A stretch of DNA of 32,651 nucleotides from an uncultured Lachnospira sp. (lineage in GTDB: Bacteria > Bacillota > Clostridia > Lachnospirales > Lachnospiraceae). Location: contig CAMZGB010000002.1 of assembly GCA_947306285.1 (NCBI GenBank), positions 1 to 32,651 on the forward strand, in the 5' to 3' direction. This document shows positions 1-8,643 of this stretch, in pieces. The notes below the pieces were generated by a model that had not been told where the DNA came from, made no database searches, and saw nothing but the letters and a program-made list of their open reading frames with translations. Every line of letters starts with the position of its first letter. Position 1 is the first letter of the stretch. A program made the translations under genes and the position numbers.

Positions 1-1588
1 AGTCACAATCAAATTCAAAGTAAAGAACGTTCGACTTAGGAAGTCCTGTCTCTGATTCTTCGCCAGTCTCGAAATTAGTAACTGTTCCAAACTTGTAATC
101 TTTAAATACCTTCGTTGGAATTCCACCGAGCTCTTTTGGAGGATTCTCGCGAAGTTTCTCAATTGTATTTTGAATCTTCTCTAATCCTTCTTTACCTTTA
201 AGAGTGATAGATTCTGTTCTATCTCTCCAGTATCCATATCTCCAGTATAATTCTTTAATCTTATCCCAAAGAGAAATGTCCCACTGTTTGTAGTATGCAG
301 CGGCCTCGGAGAAGACCATAGCAGCCACAACTGCGTCTTTATCTCTAGCATGTGTGCCAACTAGATATCCATAAGACTCTTCAAAGCCTGCGACGAATGT
401 GCCGTGTCCACTCTTCTCAAACTCAAGAATCTTTCCACCGATATATTTGAAACCAGTTAAAGTCTCAATACAATCTACATGGTAGTAATCAGCAATGTCA
501 TTTGCCATATTTGTACTAACTATAGTTTTGATGATAGCTCCATCTTCTGGAATTGTGCCATCCACATTCATAACATCAAGTTCGTACTCACAAAGTAGGC
601 AACCTTGCATATTCCCTGTAAGTGGAATGTATTCGCCACGTTCTTCGCCGCGGACGTAAATACCAATTCTATCTGCATCAGGATCTGTAGCCATTAGCAA
701 ATCTGCATCCACTTCAGTTCCTAACTTAACTGCCAATTCAAATGTCTGTGGATCCTCTGGGTTTGGATAAGGGCATGTTGGGAAATCGCCATTTGGCATC
801 TCCTGCTCCTTAACCACATAAATATTTGTGAATCCAAGTTCATCTAGCACACGACGCACTGGAATATTACCTGTTCCATGAAGTGGTGTGTAGACAATCT
901 TTGTCTTATCTTTAACTTTATCAATAGCATCCTGCTTCTTAACCTGAGTCTTGATAGCAGCGATGTACTTATCATCAATCTCTTTGCCAATCTGGATGTA
1001 AAGACCTTTCTCAATAGCCTCAGCCTTATCCATAGTCTTGGCTTCTGTAATATCGATAGCATTAACTTCTGCAGTAATTCCCTCATCGTGTGGAGGTGTA
1101 ACCTGCGCGCCGTCTTCCCAGTAAACTTTGTAACCGTTGTACTCTGCTGGGTTGTGGCTAGCAGTAATATTGATACCAGAAATACAACCAAGTTCACGAA
1201 CTGTGAATGAAAGCATAGGTGTTGGACGAAGTGCATCAAACACATAAGCCTTAATTCCGTTTGCTGCCAAGCAAAGTGCTGCGGCATCCGCAAACTCTGG
1301 TGACATATTTCTAGAATCATATGCTATAGCAACGCCCCTATCCTGTCCGTTTTGCTTGATTATATAGTTTGCAAGACCTTGAGTGGCTTTTCCAACTGTA
1401 TAAAAGTTCATACGGTTAGTACCAGCACCTATAATTCCTCTAAGTCCTGCCGTACCAAACTCAAGCTCTTTATAAAAGCGCTCTTCTATCTCTTTTTCGT
1501 CATTTTCAATGGCTCTTAATTCTTCCTTTGTTCCCTCGTCGAAGTAAGGATTCTCAAGCCATTCGTTATAAATATCTTTATAACTCAT
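1..1588 (-). CDS. pgcA: phosphoglucomutase / phosphomannomutase family protein (3' end outside window)
   Basis: Open minus-strand frame from ATG at 1588 (MSYKDIYNEWLENPYFDEGTKEEL...) to the window edge; contains ELEFGTAGLRGIIGAGTNRMN, the phosphoserine loop region GINITASHNPAEYNGYKVYW, and DPDADRIG. Missing from the ORF track because its stop is outside the window. Confidence 0.9.
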   Translation of the reverse strand, partial: MSYKDIYNEWLENPYFDEGTKEELRAIENDEKEIEERFYKELEFGTAGLRGIIGAGTNRMNFYTVGKATQGLANYIIKQNGQDRGVAIAYDSRNMSPEFADAAALCLAANGIKAYVFDALRPTPMLSFTVRELGCISGINITASHNPAEYNGYKVYWEDGAQVTPPHDEGITAEVNAIDITEAKTMDKAEAIEKGLYIQIGKEIDDKYIAAIKTQVKKQDAIDKVKDKTKIVYTPLHGTGNIPVRRVLDELGFTNIYVVKEQEMPNGDFPTCPYPNPEDPQTFELAVKLGTEVDADLLMATDPDADRIGIYVRGEERGEYIPLTGNMQGCLLCEYELDVMNVDGTIPEDGAIIKTIVSTNMANDIADYYHVDCIETLTGFKYIGGKILEFEKSGHGTFVAGFEESYGYLVGTHARDKDAVVAAMVFSEAAAYYKQWDISLWDKIKELYWRYGYWRDRTESITLKGKEGLEKIQNTIEKLRENPPKELGGIPTKVFKDYKFGTVTNFETGEESETGLPKSNVLYFEFDCD

Positions 1589-1666: not shown

Positions 1667-3022
1667 TTATAGCATTTTTTGGGCTATTTCTACTAGTTTT
1701 TCGTGGTTATTCAGTTCTGGTTCCGATAGAACTTTATCTAGCAGTTTTTCTAGTATTTCTCCTATCTTTTCACCGGGCTCAACACCCATATCAATCAAGT
1801 CCTGCCCTGTGATATCTAGTTCCTTAATGCTAGTGGCATAGCCTTTTTCCTTAATCTCGTCGAACTGTGCCTGACAGTACTCAAGCATTGGATAACCAAC
1901 TTCTCTAGCATAGTCGCTCTTACCCTCGTAGTCTGAGTATGAGAAGTCGATGAAGTACTGGTAAAAGTCCTTCCCAATCTCGTGAACACTTCGTCTGATT
2001 GTCTCTGGGTCTAGCGAGTATGGTCTGTCGTCGTGATGAAGAATTATGTGACTTACGGCTTTTATAGTCTTATTGTCCATCTTTAAGCGCTTCATAATCT
2101 CACGCGCTTTCTCAGAACCTGAGTCTGGATGATCTTTGAAGTGGTGATAACCGTCCTCATCCACCGACAACTCATCAGGTTTTGTGATGTCGTGAAGAAG
2201 CGCCGTCCATCTAAGAATTCTGTCTTTTCTAGTACTCTCCAAAACTTTGATTGTGTGTTCTCCCACATTGTGGTCATGATAAAGCGAGCGCTGCTCCTGA
2301 TTCATAAGCCTATCGAACTCTGGCATAATCACTTTTGTAATTCCAAGTTCATATGCCTTAATAAACATTCCAGGATGGTCAGACATAATTAGCTTCTCTA
2401 ACTCAGTCTGAATTCGCTCTGCGCTGATGTTTTTCAAATTTGGAGCAAGTTCCTTCATGGCTTTTTGCGTTTCTTCTTCTATTTCAAATCCAAGTTGCGC
2501 AGCAAAACGAACCGCTCTAAGAATCCTTAATGCGTCTTCGCTGAAGCGCTCGTAAGGATCACCCACGCATCTGATTGTTTTATTTTTTAAATCTTTGATG
2601 CCGTCAAATTCATCCACTAAACCTGCTTGGTTATTGTAGGCCATAGCATTTATCGTAAAGTCACGACGCATCAAATCTTCCTTCAAATCTGATGTAAACT
2701 CGACTGACTCTGGATGTCTTGAATCCTTGTACTCACCCTCAATTCGGTAAGTTGTAACTTCATATGATTCGCCACCCATTCGCACAGTAACTGTTCCATG
2801 TTCAATACCCGTGTCAAAGGTTCTATTAAAGATTCGCTTTACATCCTCTGGCTTCGCTGAAGTTGTGATATCCCAATCATCTGGGTTTCTATTAAGGATT
2901 GAGTCACGCACACATCCACCCACAGCAAAAGCCTCATAGCCCTCTTTGTCCAAGATGGATATGATTTTCTTCACGCTATTTGGAAGTTCGATATGAAGTT
3001 TTGATGTGTTTGTAATCTTCAT
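1667..3022 (-). CDS. cca: possible internally initiated stand-alone CCA tRNA nucleotidyltransferase (451 aa)
   Basis: In-frame ATG at 3022 (MKITNTSKLHIELPNSVKKIISILDKEGYEAFAVGG) lies where a normal CCA enzyme would start, with AAGGA (+ strand 3030-3034) 7 nt upstream on the minus strand. Confidence 0.5.
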   Translation of the reverse strand: MKITNTSKLHIELPNSVKKIISILDKEGYEAFAVGGCVRDSILNRNPDDWDITTSAKPEDVKRIFNRTFDTGIEHGTVTVRMGGESYEVTTYRIEGEYKDSRHPESVEFTSDLKEDLMRRDFTINAMAYNNQAGLVDEFDGIKDLKNKTIRCVGDPYERFSEDALRILRAVRFAAQLGFEIEEETQKAMKELAPNLKNISAERIQTELEKLIMSDHPGMFIKAYELGITKVIMPEFDRLMNQEQRSLYHDHNVGEHTIKVLESTRKDRILRWTALLHDITKPDELSVDEDGYHHFKDHPDSGSEKAREIMKRLKMDNKTIKAVSHIILHHDDRPYSLDPETIRRSVHEIGKDFYQYFIDFSYSDYEGKSDYAREVGYPMLEYCQAQFDEIKEKGYATSIKELDITGQDLIDMGVEPGEKIGEILEKLLDKVLSEPELNNHEKLVEIAQKML

Positions 3023-4450
3023 CTTCTTATCCTTAAACTTTGGTATGTCCTTAGTTCCTAGTTTGTCTAACTCTTCAGCCATTATCTCGAATGCATCTTT
3101 TAGTTTGCTCTCCTCCACCGCGGAGTAGTTGATTATGAATTGGTGTTTGTAACTCTTCGCTTTTTGATAACAATAGTCCGAAACACTTTTTAGCTTTATG
3201 CCTTTTTTCATCAAGGCCCTTAGGAAACGTTTGTCATCTACCGCCAAATCAATCTCTAATATAAAGTGAAGTCCGGAAGATGCCTCTCGTATCTTTATCC
3301 TGTCGCTCATCCTCGAGTTTTTAAGCTCGTCCATTATCACCTTCCGGTAATTCTTATAGTAGTTTCTCATTCTATTGATATGCCTTGAGTAATATCCGTC
3401 CGATATGAAGGTAGCCAATGTATATTGATCAAAACTTGAAACTGTGCTTGAGTAAAACGATAGTTTTTCGTTAAACACTTTCATCAAAACATCTGGGAGC
3501 ACCATGTATGCAATACGAATAGATGGAGCCAAAGTCTTAGAGAAAGTATTTAAATATATAACTTTATCTGGATTTAAACTCTGCAATGTAGGAAGAGGCC
3601 TTCCTTTAAATCTAAACTCACTGTCGTAGTCGTCCTCTATCACAAAGCCGTGGTTTTTGTTAATAAGTTCAAGTAGTTTTGTTCTATTGTTAATAGGCAT
3701 CACACATCCAGTTGGGAAATGATGCGATGGAGATAGGTGAACAACTTTCGCTTTGGATGATTCCAATATCTTTAAGTCTATTCCATCTTCAAGCACTGGA
3801 ACTGGTATGCATTTGACACCATTGCTCTCATAAACGCTTCCCACTTTCTTGTGCCCTGGATCTTCTATGGCAATCATATGGTTCTTGCCAAGGAGCTGAA
3901 CGATCAATCCATATAGATATTCCATTCCGGCTCCCACTACTATGTTGTCCGGGTTGACATTCATTCCACGAAAGTCCGCAAGATGGTTCGCGATTGCTTC
4001 TCTTAAGCCTTCCACCCCCACATGGTCAGGACTTGCTAAGAAATCTGACTCACTATCAGCGATAGTCCTTCTCATAATCTTCGACCAAGTGTTAAATGGG
4101 AAGCTATCGTACATTATGTGGTTTGATGAAAAGTCTACTAATGGTTTTGGTTCTTCTTTTTTCTTATGAACAGGTGCCTTCGGCGAAGACGATTGTTCAA
4201 AACCACCCTCCACTTCGGACGCGAAGTAGCCCTTCTTCTCCACAGCATAAATATAGCCCTCGACCAAAAGCTGCTCATAGGCGTTTTGCACCGTGATAAT
4301 ACTGATTCCATGATTAGAAGCCATCTCACGCTTGGACGGCAGCTTTTCATCAGGCTTAACTTTGCCCGATAATATATCTTCTCTTATGCAGTTGTACAAG
4401 TACTCATACATAGGAGTTTTACCCCTAGATGAGAAATCATAAGTTAGCAT
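1667..4450 (-). CDS. fusion protein: N-terminal MocR-type GntR regulator (wHTH + aminotransferase class I fold) and C-terminal CCA tRNA nucleotidyltransferase with HD domain
   Basis: N-term MLTYDFSSRGKTPMYEYLYNCIREDILSGKVKPDEKLPSKREMASNHGISIITVQNAYEQLLVEGYIY (GntR wHTH), then aminotransferase-like fold with YLNTFSKTLAPSIRIAY (PLP-Lys SK). From about residue 477: GGCVRDSILNRNPDDWDITTSAKPEDV, LMRRDFTINAMAYN, EDALRILRAVRFAAQLGF, LLHDITKPDE = class II CCA-adding enzyme. One uninterrupted frame. Confidence 0.9.
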   Translation of the reverse strand: MLTYDFSSRGKTPMYEYLYNCIREDILSGKVKPDEKLPSKREMASNHGISIITVQNAYEQLLVEGYIYAVEKKGYFASEVEGGFEQSSSPKAPVHKKKEEPKPLVDFSSNHIMYDSFPFNTWSKIMRRTIADSESDFLASPDHVGVEGLREAIANHLADFRGMNVNPDNIVVGAGMEYLYGLIVQLLGKNHMIAIEDPGHKKVGSVYESNGVKCIPVPVLEDGIDLKILESSKAKVVHLSPSHHFPTGCVMPINNRTKLLELINKNHGFVIEDDYDSEFRFKGRPLPTLQSLNPDKVIYLNTFSKTLAPSIRIAYMVLPDVLMKVFNEKLSFYSSTVSSFDQYTLATFISDGYYSRHINRMRNYYKNYRKVIMDELKNSRMSDRIKIREASSGLHFILEIDLAVDDKRFLRALMKKGIKLKSVSDYCYQKAKSYKHQFIINYSAVEESKLKDAFEIMAEELDKLGTKDIPKFKDKKMKITNTSKLHIELPNSVKKIISILDKEGYEAFAVGGCVRDSILNRNPDDWDITTSAKPEDVKRIFNRTFDTGIEHGTVTVRMGGESYEVTTYRIEGEYKDSRHPESVEFTSDLKEDLMRRDFTINAMAYNNQAGLVDEFDGIKDLKNKTIRCVGDPYERFSEDALRILRAVRFAAQLGFEIEEETQKAMKELAPNLKNISAERIQTELEKLIMSDHPGMFIKAYELGITKVIMPEFDRLMNQEQRSLYHDHNVGEHTIKVLESTRKDRILRWTALLHDITKPDELSVDEDGYHHFKDHPDSGSEKAREIMKRLKMDNKTIKAVSHIILHHDDRPYSLDPETIRRSVHEIGKDFYQYFIDFSYSDYEGKSDYAREVGYPMLEYCQAQFDEIKEKGYATSIKELDITGQDLIDMGVEPGEKIGEILEKLLDKVLSEPELNNHEKLVEIAQKML

Positions 4451-4465
4451 AGTTCCTCTTAATCT

Positions 4466-4507
4466 GGTATTATTATTTTTTCTATTTTTGGTACTTTCAA
4501 TAATACC
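4466..4507. promoter_or_regulatory. candidate MocR operator in divergent promoter region
   Basis: Perfect 9-bp inverted repeat GGTATTATT (4466-4474) ... AATAATACC (4499-4507), arm starts 33 bp apart, in the 109-bp gap between the divergent MocR-CCA and pdxY genes. Confidence 0.55.
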
Positions 4508-4523
4508 ACCATAGTATTATAAT
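4495..4523 (+). promoter_or_regulatory. putative sigma-A promoter of pdxY
   Basis: TTTCAA (4495-4500), 17-bp spacer, TATAAT (4518-4523); overlaps the inverted-repeat arm. Confidence 0.5.
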
Positions 4524-4559
4524 TTCAAACAATTTATAATCACTAAAAGGAGAGATATT

Positions 4560-5390
4560 ATGAAAAGAGTAATGAGTATTCAAGATGTATCTTGTATAGG
4601 TAAGTGCTCGCTTACTGTTGCACTTCCTATCATTTCGGCGATGGGCGTTGAGTGTGCAATCGTTCCAACAGCTGTGCTTTCAACCCATACACAGTTCAAT
4701 GATTTTACATTCCGCGATTTGACAGATGATATGGAGCCTATCAAGGAGCATTGGAAAAAAGAAGATTTCAAGTTTGATGCTTTGTATACTGGATACCTTG
4801 GTTCAAAGAGACAGATAGATATTGTGGCAGACTACTTTGACACATTTAAGACAGACGAAAATGTAATCGTAATGGATCCAGCTATGGCAGATAACGGAAA
4901 GTTGTATGTTGGCTTCGACGAAGACTTCGCCAAAGAGATGGCTAAGTTATGTTCAAAGGCTGACGTAATCCTTCCAAACATTTCGGAAGCATCACTAATG
5001 CTTGGCGTTGATTATCCTGGTGAGGATGCAAGTGTTGAGGAAGTCAAAGAACTTCTTTTGAAGCTTGCCGAACTTGGTCCAAAGCATGCGGTTATCACTG
5101 GTGTAGAGTTGGGTGATGGCAAGTTTGGATTTATGGGATATGACACGGAGAAGAAGGAATTCTACAGTTATGGAAATGATAAGGTTGATATGAAGTCACA
5201 CGGTACTGGCGATGTGTTTGCAAGCACATTCACAGGTGCTTTGATGAACGATAAGTCAATCTATGAGGCGTTGAAGATTGCCGCAGATTATACAAGAGAA
5301 TCTATTAAAAACACTTTTGATGATCCTAATGCTATTACATATGGCGTTAACTTTGAGAGCGAGATTCCATATTTGTTGAAAAGCTTATAA
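4560..5390 (+). CDS. pdxY: pyridoxal/pyridoxamine kinase
   Basis: MKRVMSIQDVSCIGKCSLTVALPIISAMGVECAIVPTAVLSTHTQF ... HGTGDVFASTFTGAL (ribokinase-fold anion hole); SD AAAGGAGAG upstream. Confidence 0.9.
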   Translation: MKRVMSIQDVSCIGKCSLTVALPIISAMGVECAIVPTAVLSTHTQFNDFTFRDLTDDMEPIKEHWKKEDFKFDALYTGYLGSKRQIDIVADYFDTFKTDENVIVMDPAMADNGKLYVGFDEDFAKEMAKLCSKADVILPNISEASLMLGVDYPGEDASVEEVKELLLKLAELGPKHAVITGVELGDGKFGFMGYDTEKKEFYSYGNDKVDMKSHGTGDVFASTFTGALMNDKSIYEALKIAADYTRESIKNTFDDPNAITYGVNFESEIPYLLKSL

Positions 5391-6654: not shown

Positions 6655-8643
6655 CTACTTAGAATTTCTAAACTGAACTGGTGTCATACCATATTTCTTC
6701 TTGAAAGTTCTAGTAAAGTTTTCAACATTCTGGTATCCAACCTCGTGCGCGATAGTTTCCACATTTTTGTTTCCACTCTTAAGCATCGCTCTAGCTTTCT
6801 TCATTCGCACGTTAGTCACTATATCGCCGAAGGTCTTTCCAGATTTATCTTTTATATACTTTGAAAGATATGTCTTTGTAAGCTTGAACTCTTCAGCCAA
6901 CTCATCAAGAGTTACTGTCAAATAATTAGTATTAATGTAGTTTAGAATCTCAGTTAATCTCTCATCCTGATCATCTTTATCCTTAAGCGTTGCCACATAC
7001 TGGTTAACCGCCGAAGTCAAAGCATTAATTGATGACTTAATAATATCCTCATCAATACCAACGCCCCAGAACATTGTTCCGTTGCAGCTAATGCCTACGT
7101 ATGAAACCGCCTTCGACGAAGAACCACGAGAAAGCGAATGTTCTTCGTAGAATGAAAGTTCGTAGCTTATATCAAAGAATGATTTAAACGCATTACTTAC
7201 CGCATCCAATCTTCCATTACCTGTGCTCTTGATAACACGCTTCTTATCTTTATAAATTAATGTGACATCTGAAGTGATTCCACGAGTCTGTTTGAAGTGA
7301 ACTTCTGGAACTGCAAATACTGATGTATTATTCACATACTTATCTTCAAAGATTCGATAAATAGTCTCAGGTGAAAGTTCAGCATGCTCTTTGTCGGAGA
7401 CGTCCTTAATCATGTAGCCAACTTCCTCGCGCATCTCCTGAGGAATTGAAAGACCATAGTTAGTCTTAAGAACGTAGCTTACTCCACCCTTACCAGACTG
7501 AGAGTTAATTCTGATTACGTCTGAATCGTAAGTTCTTCCAACGTCAACTGGGTCGATTGGAAGATAAGGAACATTCCACTTGCCTTCTGGATCTGCATCA
7601 CGACAAGCCATTCCTTTGGCGATAGCATCTTGGTGAGAGCCAGAGAATGCTGTAAACACAAGCTCGCCTGCGTATGGCTGACGAGGGCCAACCTTCATCC
7701 GAGTCACGCGCTCGTAAAGTTCACAAATGCGTGGCATATCACTAAAGTCTAACTTTGGATCTACGCCGTGCGAGAACATGTTCATAGCAAGTGTCACAAT
7801 ATCCACGTTACCCGTACGCTCTCCGTTTCCGAAAAGTGTTCCTTCTATTCTATCTGCTCCAGCAAGTACTGACTGTTCTGCAGTTGCCACTCCACAGCCT
7901 CTATCATTGTGAGGGTGAACTGAAATAGTAACCGCATCTCTGTACTTCAAGTGTTTGTGCATATACTCAACTTGTGTTGCAAATACATGTGGCATAGCAT
8001 TCTCAACTGTAGCTGGAATGTTAATGATTACTTTGTTATCTTTCTTTGGTTTCCAAACATCAAGCACTGCGTTACACACTTCCAATGCGTAATCAACCTC
8101 AGTACCAGGGAAACTCTCTGGAGAATATTCAAATGAGAAGTTGCCATCCACTTCTGAAGCAAGCTTGTTTAATAACTCTGCTCCATCCACAGCAATCTGT
8201 TTAATCTCTTCCTTACTCTTCTTAAACACCTGCTCTCTTTGAGCAACAGATGTTGAATTATAAAGGTGGATTACAGCATGCTTTGCACCTTTGACCGCTT
8301 CGAAGGTCTTCTTAATGATGTGCTCTCTTGCTTGGGTAAGAACTTGCACTGTCACATCATCAGGAATCATGTTTCGCTCAATCAAAGCACGCATAAAGTC
8401 GTACTCTGTCTGAGAAGCTGCTGGGAATCCAACTTCGATCTCTTTAAATCCTATATCTACCAGTAACTGGAAAAACTCCAATTTCTCATCAAGACTCATT
8501 GGCTCGATAAGTGCTTGGTTACCATCACGCAAATCTACGCTACACCAAATAGGAGCCTCTTCAATATACTCCTTCTTTACCCAATCGTACGTAGCTTCTG
8601 GTGGCATAAAGTATTGTCTCTTGTACTTCTTGAAATTTTTCAT
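6655..8643 (-). CDS. leuA: 2-isopropylmalate synthase with C-terminal AraC-family HTH domain
   Basis: [71 protein letters not shown] (LeuA catalytic motifs), LeuA-type regulatory region, then [97 protein letters not shown] (AraC double HTH). Confidence 0.93.

Follow-up and report, generated by a model that had tools for sequence, protein, structure and literature searches.

How does a transcriptional regulator of vitamin B6 metabolism come to share one reading frame with a CCA-adding tRNA nucleotidyltransferase, and what might the joint product do? The question is raised by a single long ORF in the window, the whole 32,651-nt stretch of DNA from an uncultured Lachnospira sp. that was analysed here. 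We consider it quite probable that the locus is a pdxR-cca fusion born by stop loss, giving one polypeptide in which the enzyme is carried on its own regulator and the domains most likely act independently.

A regulator and an enzyme in one frame

The ORF is a true fusion: a PdxR-type MocR regulator runs without a frame break into a class II CCA-adding enzyme, itself complete (Table 1). Six Pfam domains, all over cut-off, succeed one another in the order GntR wHTH, Aminotran_1_2, PolyA_pol, PolyA_pol_RNAbd, HD and tRNA_NucTran2_2. The frame also scores well above the NCBIfam cut-offs for the PdxR equivalog (524.8 bits; cut-off 320) and the CCA tRNA nucleotidyltransferase (PRK13299, 326.2 bits; cut-off 290), and it falls below that for GabR. 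The initial annotation had described a MocR protein and a complete CCA enzyme in one 927-aa frame, and the domain order and these cut-offs bear it out. The MocR type can now be refined to PdxR, the strand, which had not been given, is minus, and the junction lies at about 3000-3061, in agreement with the earlier placement near 3020-3060.

Residues 11-455 of the fused protein align with the PdxR structure 7pq9. The PLP lysine motif claimed for the aminotransferase fold is present as well: Lys305, in TFSK, matches the PLP lysine of both 7pq9 and GabR and is invariant in 10/10 fused proteins aligned. By analogy, the PdxR half would sense PLP and bind DNA; no second PdxR copy was found in the genus genomes. 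The CCA half, aligned to solved structures, has the main class II motifs (GGxVRD, DxD, RRD and EDxxR) together with the HD domain. Each of the 11 genomes tested contains exactly one PolyA_pol gene, the same search finding no second, free CCA copy, and of 37 distinct tRNA genes, sampled via loci in three fused genomes, no more than one ends in an encoded CCA. CCA addition is therefore needed and the fused gene is the sole candidate for it; by these gene counts, the fused CCA enzyme must function.

Comparisons inside the fused clades give a dN/dS of 0.03-0.06 for PdxR and, in most pairs, 0.03-0.07 for CCA (0.13 for the CCA half of the close pair G016/G001, in which the G001 C-terminus looks recombined), a level as in split species, the ratios of more distant pairs being rough because dS nears saturation. 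These values point to strong purifying selection on both halves and, with the complete domain order, rule out a chance open frame. AlphaFold2, run on the single chain with 66 sequences, modelled both halves confidently (mean pLDDT 85.6, pTM 0.51) and left two stretches disordered: residues 82-101, which belong to PdxR, and the linker residues 467-483 (pLDDT <50). No fixed mutual arrangement of the halves is predicted, which makes allostery less likely.

Table 1. Features of the pdxK/pdxR-cca locus (positions in the window)
Feature	Position	Strand	Basis
Fused ORF, PdxR (MocR) + CCA-adding enzyme, 927 aa	1667..4450	-	ORF + domain profiles
GntR-type winged helix-turn-helix, PF00392	4223..4408	-	Pfam
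Aminotransferase-like PLP/effector domain, PF00155	3194..4144	-	Pfam
Codon of Lys305 in the TFSK motif, the lysine expected to form the PLP Schiff base	3536..3538	-	alignment
Linker between the domains, residues 464-485, with disorder predicted for 467-483	2996..3061	-	alignment + AlphaFold2
Weak Shine-Dalgarno-like AAGGAT ahead of Met477	3029..3034	-	anti-Shine-Dalgarno score
Met477 codon, ATG, vestige of former stand-alone CCA start; lost in six-species subclade	3020..3022	-	alignment
Nucleotidyltransferase head domain (PolyA_pol), motifs GGCVRD, DDWD, RRD	2570..2929	-	Pfam + motif alignment
PolyA_pol_RNAbd domain	2309..2491	-	Pfam
HD domain	2021..2227	-	Pfam
tRNA_NucTran2_2 C-terminal domain	1685..2116	-	Pfam
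Predicted fusion promoter, TTGAAA-17-TATTAT, extended TG	4500..4528	-	consensus match only
Operator box 1, TGGTATTATT, opposite in orientation to boxes 2 and 3 and overlying the predicted -10 hexamer	4499..4508	-	sequence
Operator box 2, TACCAA	4488..4493	-	sequence
Operator box 3, ATAATACCAGA, repeats box 2 in direct orientation, 24 bp apart	4463..4473	-	sequence
Divergent pyridoxamine/pyridoxal kinase pdxK	4560..5390	+	domain profiles + neighbourhood

Origin and retention of the fusion in the genus

The gene order pdxK<->pdxR-cca, with pdxK divergent beside pdxR, is common to 23/23 genus genomes (in G013, a frame break and contig edges leave pdxK in pieces). pdxR and cca form one open frame in 11 of them (G000, which is the genome of the window, G001, G003, G004, G005, G006, G011, G013, G016, G018 and G021; G011, with a contig edge inside cca, is counted as fused because its junction is spanned) and are separate genes in 12. 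The GTDB-named relatives are uncultured Lachnospiraceae or Eubacterium, several of them from the gut of ruminants and other herbivores.

On a tree of both proteins the state must change twice, and a monophyletic fused group is rejected (AU test, p = 5.7e-5). Two changes also fit one gain and one loss; the codon detail at the junction favours separate gains, and we read tree and codons together as a fused state that arose at least twice. In the split sisters of G018 and G021 (G002, G007, G008 and G009), a TAG or TAA stands immediately ahead of the cca ATG and in frame with it, and the ribosome site GGAGGA (GGAGGAC in G002) lies just upstream of that ATG. In G018 and G021 a sense codon takes the place of the stop, GGAGGAATCAATG and GGAGGAAGCAATG (TCA and GCA-type), with GGAGGA and ATG unchanged. 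Judged from these codons, the origin in this pair is the loss of one stop codon directly ahead of the in-frame CCA start. A stop at the junction in relatives, which the initial annotation had named as the sign of two separate genes, is present in 12 congeners; all 12 sit outside both fused clades, and their stops trace how the fusion was formed and do not make it false.

The other fused clade differs at the junction. G000 keeps the ATG with a weak AAGGAT, G004 has a GTG at the former CCA start position, and G001, G005, G006, G011, G013 and G016 have a Lys/Thr-rich linker at the junction. In these six K-linker species no ATG, GTG or TTG occurs between the last MocR helix and GGCVRD, bar a GTG at the motif itself. 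The genus keeps apparent stages (genes separate; genes abutting; stop lost and internal start kept; internal start lost) along which one can trace how an obligate fusion comes into being.

Why has the fusion been retained? It may have no role beyond that of two separate proteins, if both ends tolerate the fusion and streamlined genomes leave the lost stop unrepaired. One or two substitutions separate the split relatives from the fusion, the assemblies of fused clade-A members are of small size (1.1-1.7 Mb, some incomplete), the linker between the halves is disordered with no fixed contact predicted, and in two other genera a CCA gene ran into an unrelated downstream gene. These points fit a neutral stop loss. 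Against it, the fusion has been kept throughout clade A, down to 61% identity to G003, it has arisen twice, and its linker has grown into a stretch rich in Lys from which the internal start has gone. We see the chances of neutrality as evenly balanced; it concerns the retention of the fusion and is compatible with the anatomy of the stop-loss fusion that we favour.

Expression of the fusion and a possible link between B6 and tRNA ends

pdxS exceeds its cut-off in only 1/23 genus genomes, so that salvage is the probable route to B6. The box consensus in the intergenic region between pdxK and pdxR is TGGTATTAT(T/G), (T/A)ACCAA and ATAATACCAGA, with a spacing fixed at 38/24 bp in the eight clade-A genomes and the same pattern in many split genomes. 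The clade of G018 and G021 has a weaker box 3; in G003, where the scan ended at the ATG and missed it, it is visible in the sequence. The predicted -10 of the fusion promoter, a consensus match, falls within box 1. Two direct boxes plus one inverted box, as here, are reported to be the commonest MocR operator structure; apo-PdxR is reported to activate the B6 genes divergent from it and to repress itself, PLP serving as anti-activator (PMC5320631). If the fusion behaves likewise, scarce PLP would be expected to increase pdxK expression and to keep that of the fusion low. Because the pdxK-pdxR operator has been kept and one of its boxes covers the predicted -10, the supply of CCA enzyme probably depends on PdxR autoregulation.

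In the mechanism that we propose, adjacent in-frame pdxR and cca genes, probably co-transcribed beforehand, would have lost the stop between them. The product would be a single polypeptide with PdxR at the N-terminus, a flexible linker and a fully equipped CCA-adding enzyme at the C-terminus, in which the PdxR half, as in other bacteria, would sense PLP and act on its own promoter as well as on pdxK, the salvage gene divergent from it, and the CCA half would mature the cell's tRNAs. Translation as one protein and autoregulation are both suggested by the open frame and its operator. Every CCA enzyme made would then be one more autoregulator, and since the enzyme would be part of the regulator acting on its own promoter, CCA supply would be capped by the PdxR loop and shift with PLP. 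Most likely the domains would work independently and B6 would not switch CCA activity allosterically, the fusion being either tolerated or of slight benefit; proteolysis of the linker could release both halves. An essential housekeeping enzyme would now be fixed onto a one-locus metabolic regulator.

Might the frame be open, yet internal initiation yield a free CCA enzyme as the main form? In G018 and G021, whose GGAGGA and ATG are identical to those of the split sisters, the ribosome site at the junction scores -9.3 kcal/mol, reached by just 0.4% of internal ATGs. G000 also keeps an ATG with AAGGAT, but this site scores -4.9 kcal/mol against the anti-Shine-Dalgarno (about as good as the PdxR start, at -5.7), which is equalled or bettered by 16% of internal ATGs in the genes of the window. 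No promoter-like site was found near the junction on the coding strand. Because the linker of the six K-linker species has no start codon, the CCA enzyme is not plausibly started alone there and dual products are not general. From ribosome-site scores and start-codon status, a free CCA product is likely in G018 and G021 and uncertain in G000; for the K-linker species it is implausible. That free enzyme is the main form we find rather doubtful.

The initial annotation had suggested that B6 status could be coupled to tRNA maturation, physically or through translation. At the level of expression the sequence is consistent with such coupling, since cca lies behind a presumably PdxR-autoregulated promoter and has no plausible start of its own in six fused species; an action of B6 on CCA activity through the protein is not supported. 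It is improbable, in our view, that the fusion serves as a B6-responsive device for tRNA maturation, in which PLP, via PdxR conformation or operator binding, would set the activity or free amount of the sole CCA enzyme. Slightly less credible still is gating in which PLP binding alters CCA-adding activity or DNA binding keeps the enzyme from tRNA. The CCA enzyme is physically joined to a PLP sensor, the PLP lysine and CCA motifs are intact, the genus apparently depends on B6 salvage and the fusion has two origins, all of which would suit such gating. The linker is disordered, however, with no interface predicted; no nucleotidyltransferase is reported among the members of the PdxR regulons of PMC5320631; and the adjacency of cca predates the fusion, so that expression linkage alone can explain the pairing. 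Two independent tethered domains are likelier than direct B6 control of CCA activity. If the PdxR half did affect tRNA finishing, it would be a direct link from cofactor to translation. Finally, an assembly or sequencing artefact (a missed stop or frameshift), conceivable in a source draft that is 60% complete in 146 contigs, can be rejected with hardly any reservation, because ten further genus genomes of diverged sequence (57-88% identity) have the same open junction.

Distribution and comparison with known systems

Searches of related genomes find the fusion in congeners only: outside the genus no PdxR-CCA fusion was found among 397 family-level and 291 class-level genomes, two sets that overlap a little and are samples, not a census. 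One family match spanning both halves (G150) is not a fusion, given its stops and weak MocR match. Nor did the open-access literature yield a paper pairing PdxR with a CCA nucleotidyltransferase or a description of the architecture, in keeping with the initial annotation, which took it to be undescribed. We regard PdxR-CCA as a new arrangement of two well-known proteins, one that has evolved twice.

Other features of these loci deserve mention. Downstream of the fusion, the window holds a 158-aa ORF (844-1320, minus strand) with no Pfam or NCBIfam match. At 6655-8643 (minus strand), a 662-aa frame joins LeuA, the 2-isopropylmalate synthase, to an AraC-type HTH at the C-terminus; it is full length in 22/23 genus genomes (the G016 match covers residues 1-328 only) and occurs also in G023, G027, G029 and G031, of other genera, most other relatives matching the LeuA part only. 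In the CCA half of G001 (L007), the last ~35 residues are nearer to distant species than to close relatives and look recombined.

How does the fusion compare with known proteins? In G333 and G045, of two other genera, long CCA frames are joined, like the fusion, in an open frame to a neighbouring gene, but there the partner is downstream, unrelated and seemingly membrane-anchored. We rejected them as cases of the same fusion because the extension is C-terminal and lipoprotein-like: both frames (L148:1190-3883 and L149:2411-4975, minus strand; 897 and 854 aa) run from the CCA enzyme into in-frame PEGA-domain lipoprotein-like sequence, which might anchor the enzyme at the membrane in those genera. 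With PdxR, of the MocR/GabR subfamily of GntR regulators (7pq9 and the divergons of PMC5320631), the fusion shares the wHTH, the aminotransferase fold and the PLP lysine and, at its locus, the divergent B6 gene with direct-plus-inverted operator boxes; it differs in the additional C-terminal CCA enzyme of 450 residues. With the class II CCA enzymes 6ibp/6qy6 and 1miv it shares the head, RNA-binding, HD and C-terminal domains and their four motifs, and it differs from them in bearing a transcription factor on the CCA N-terminus and, in six species, in having lost the enzyme's own start.
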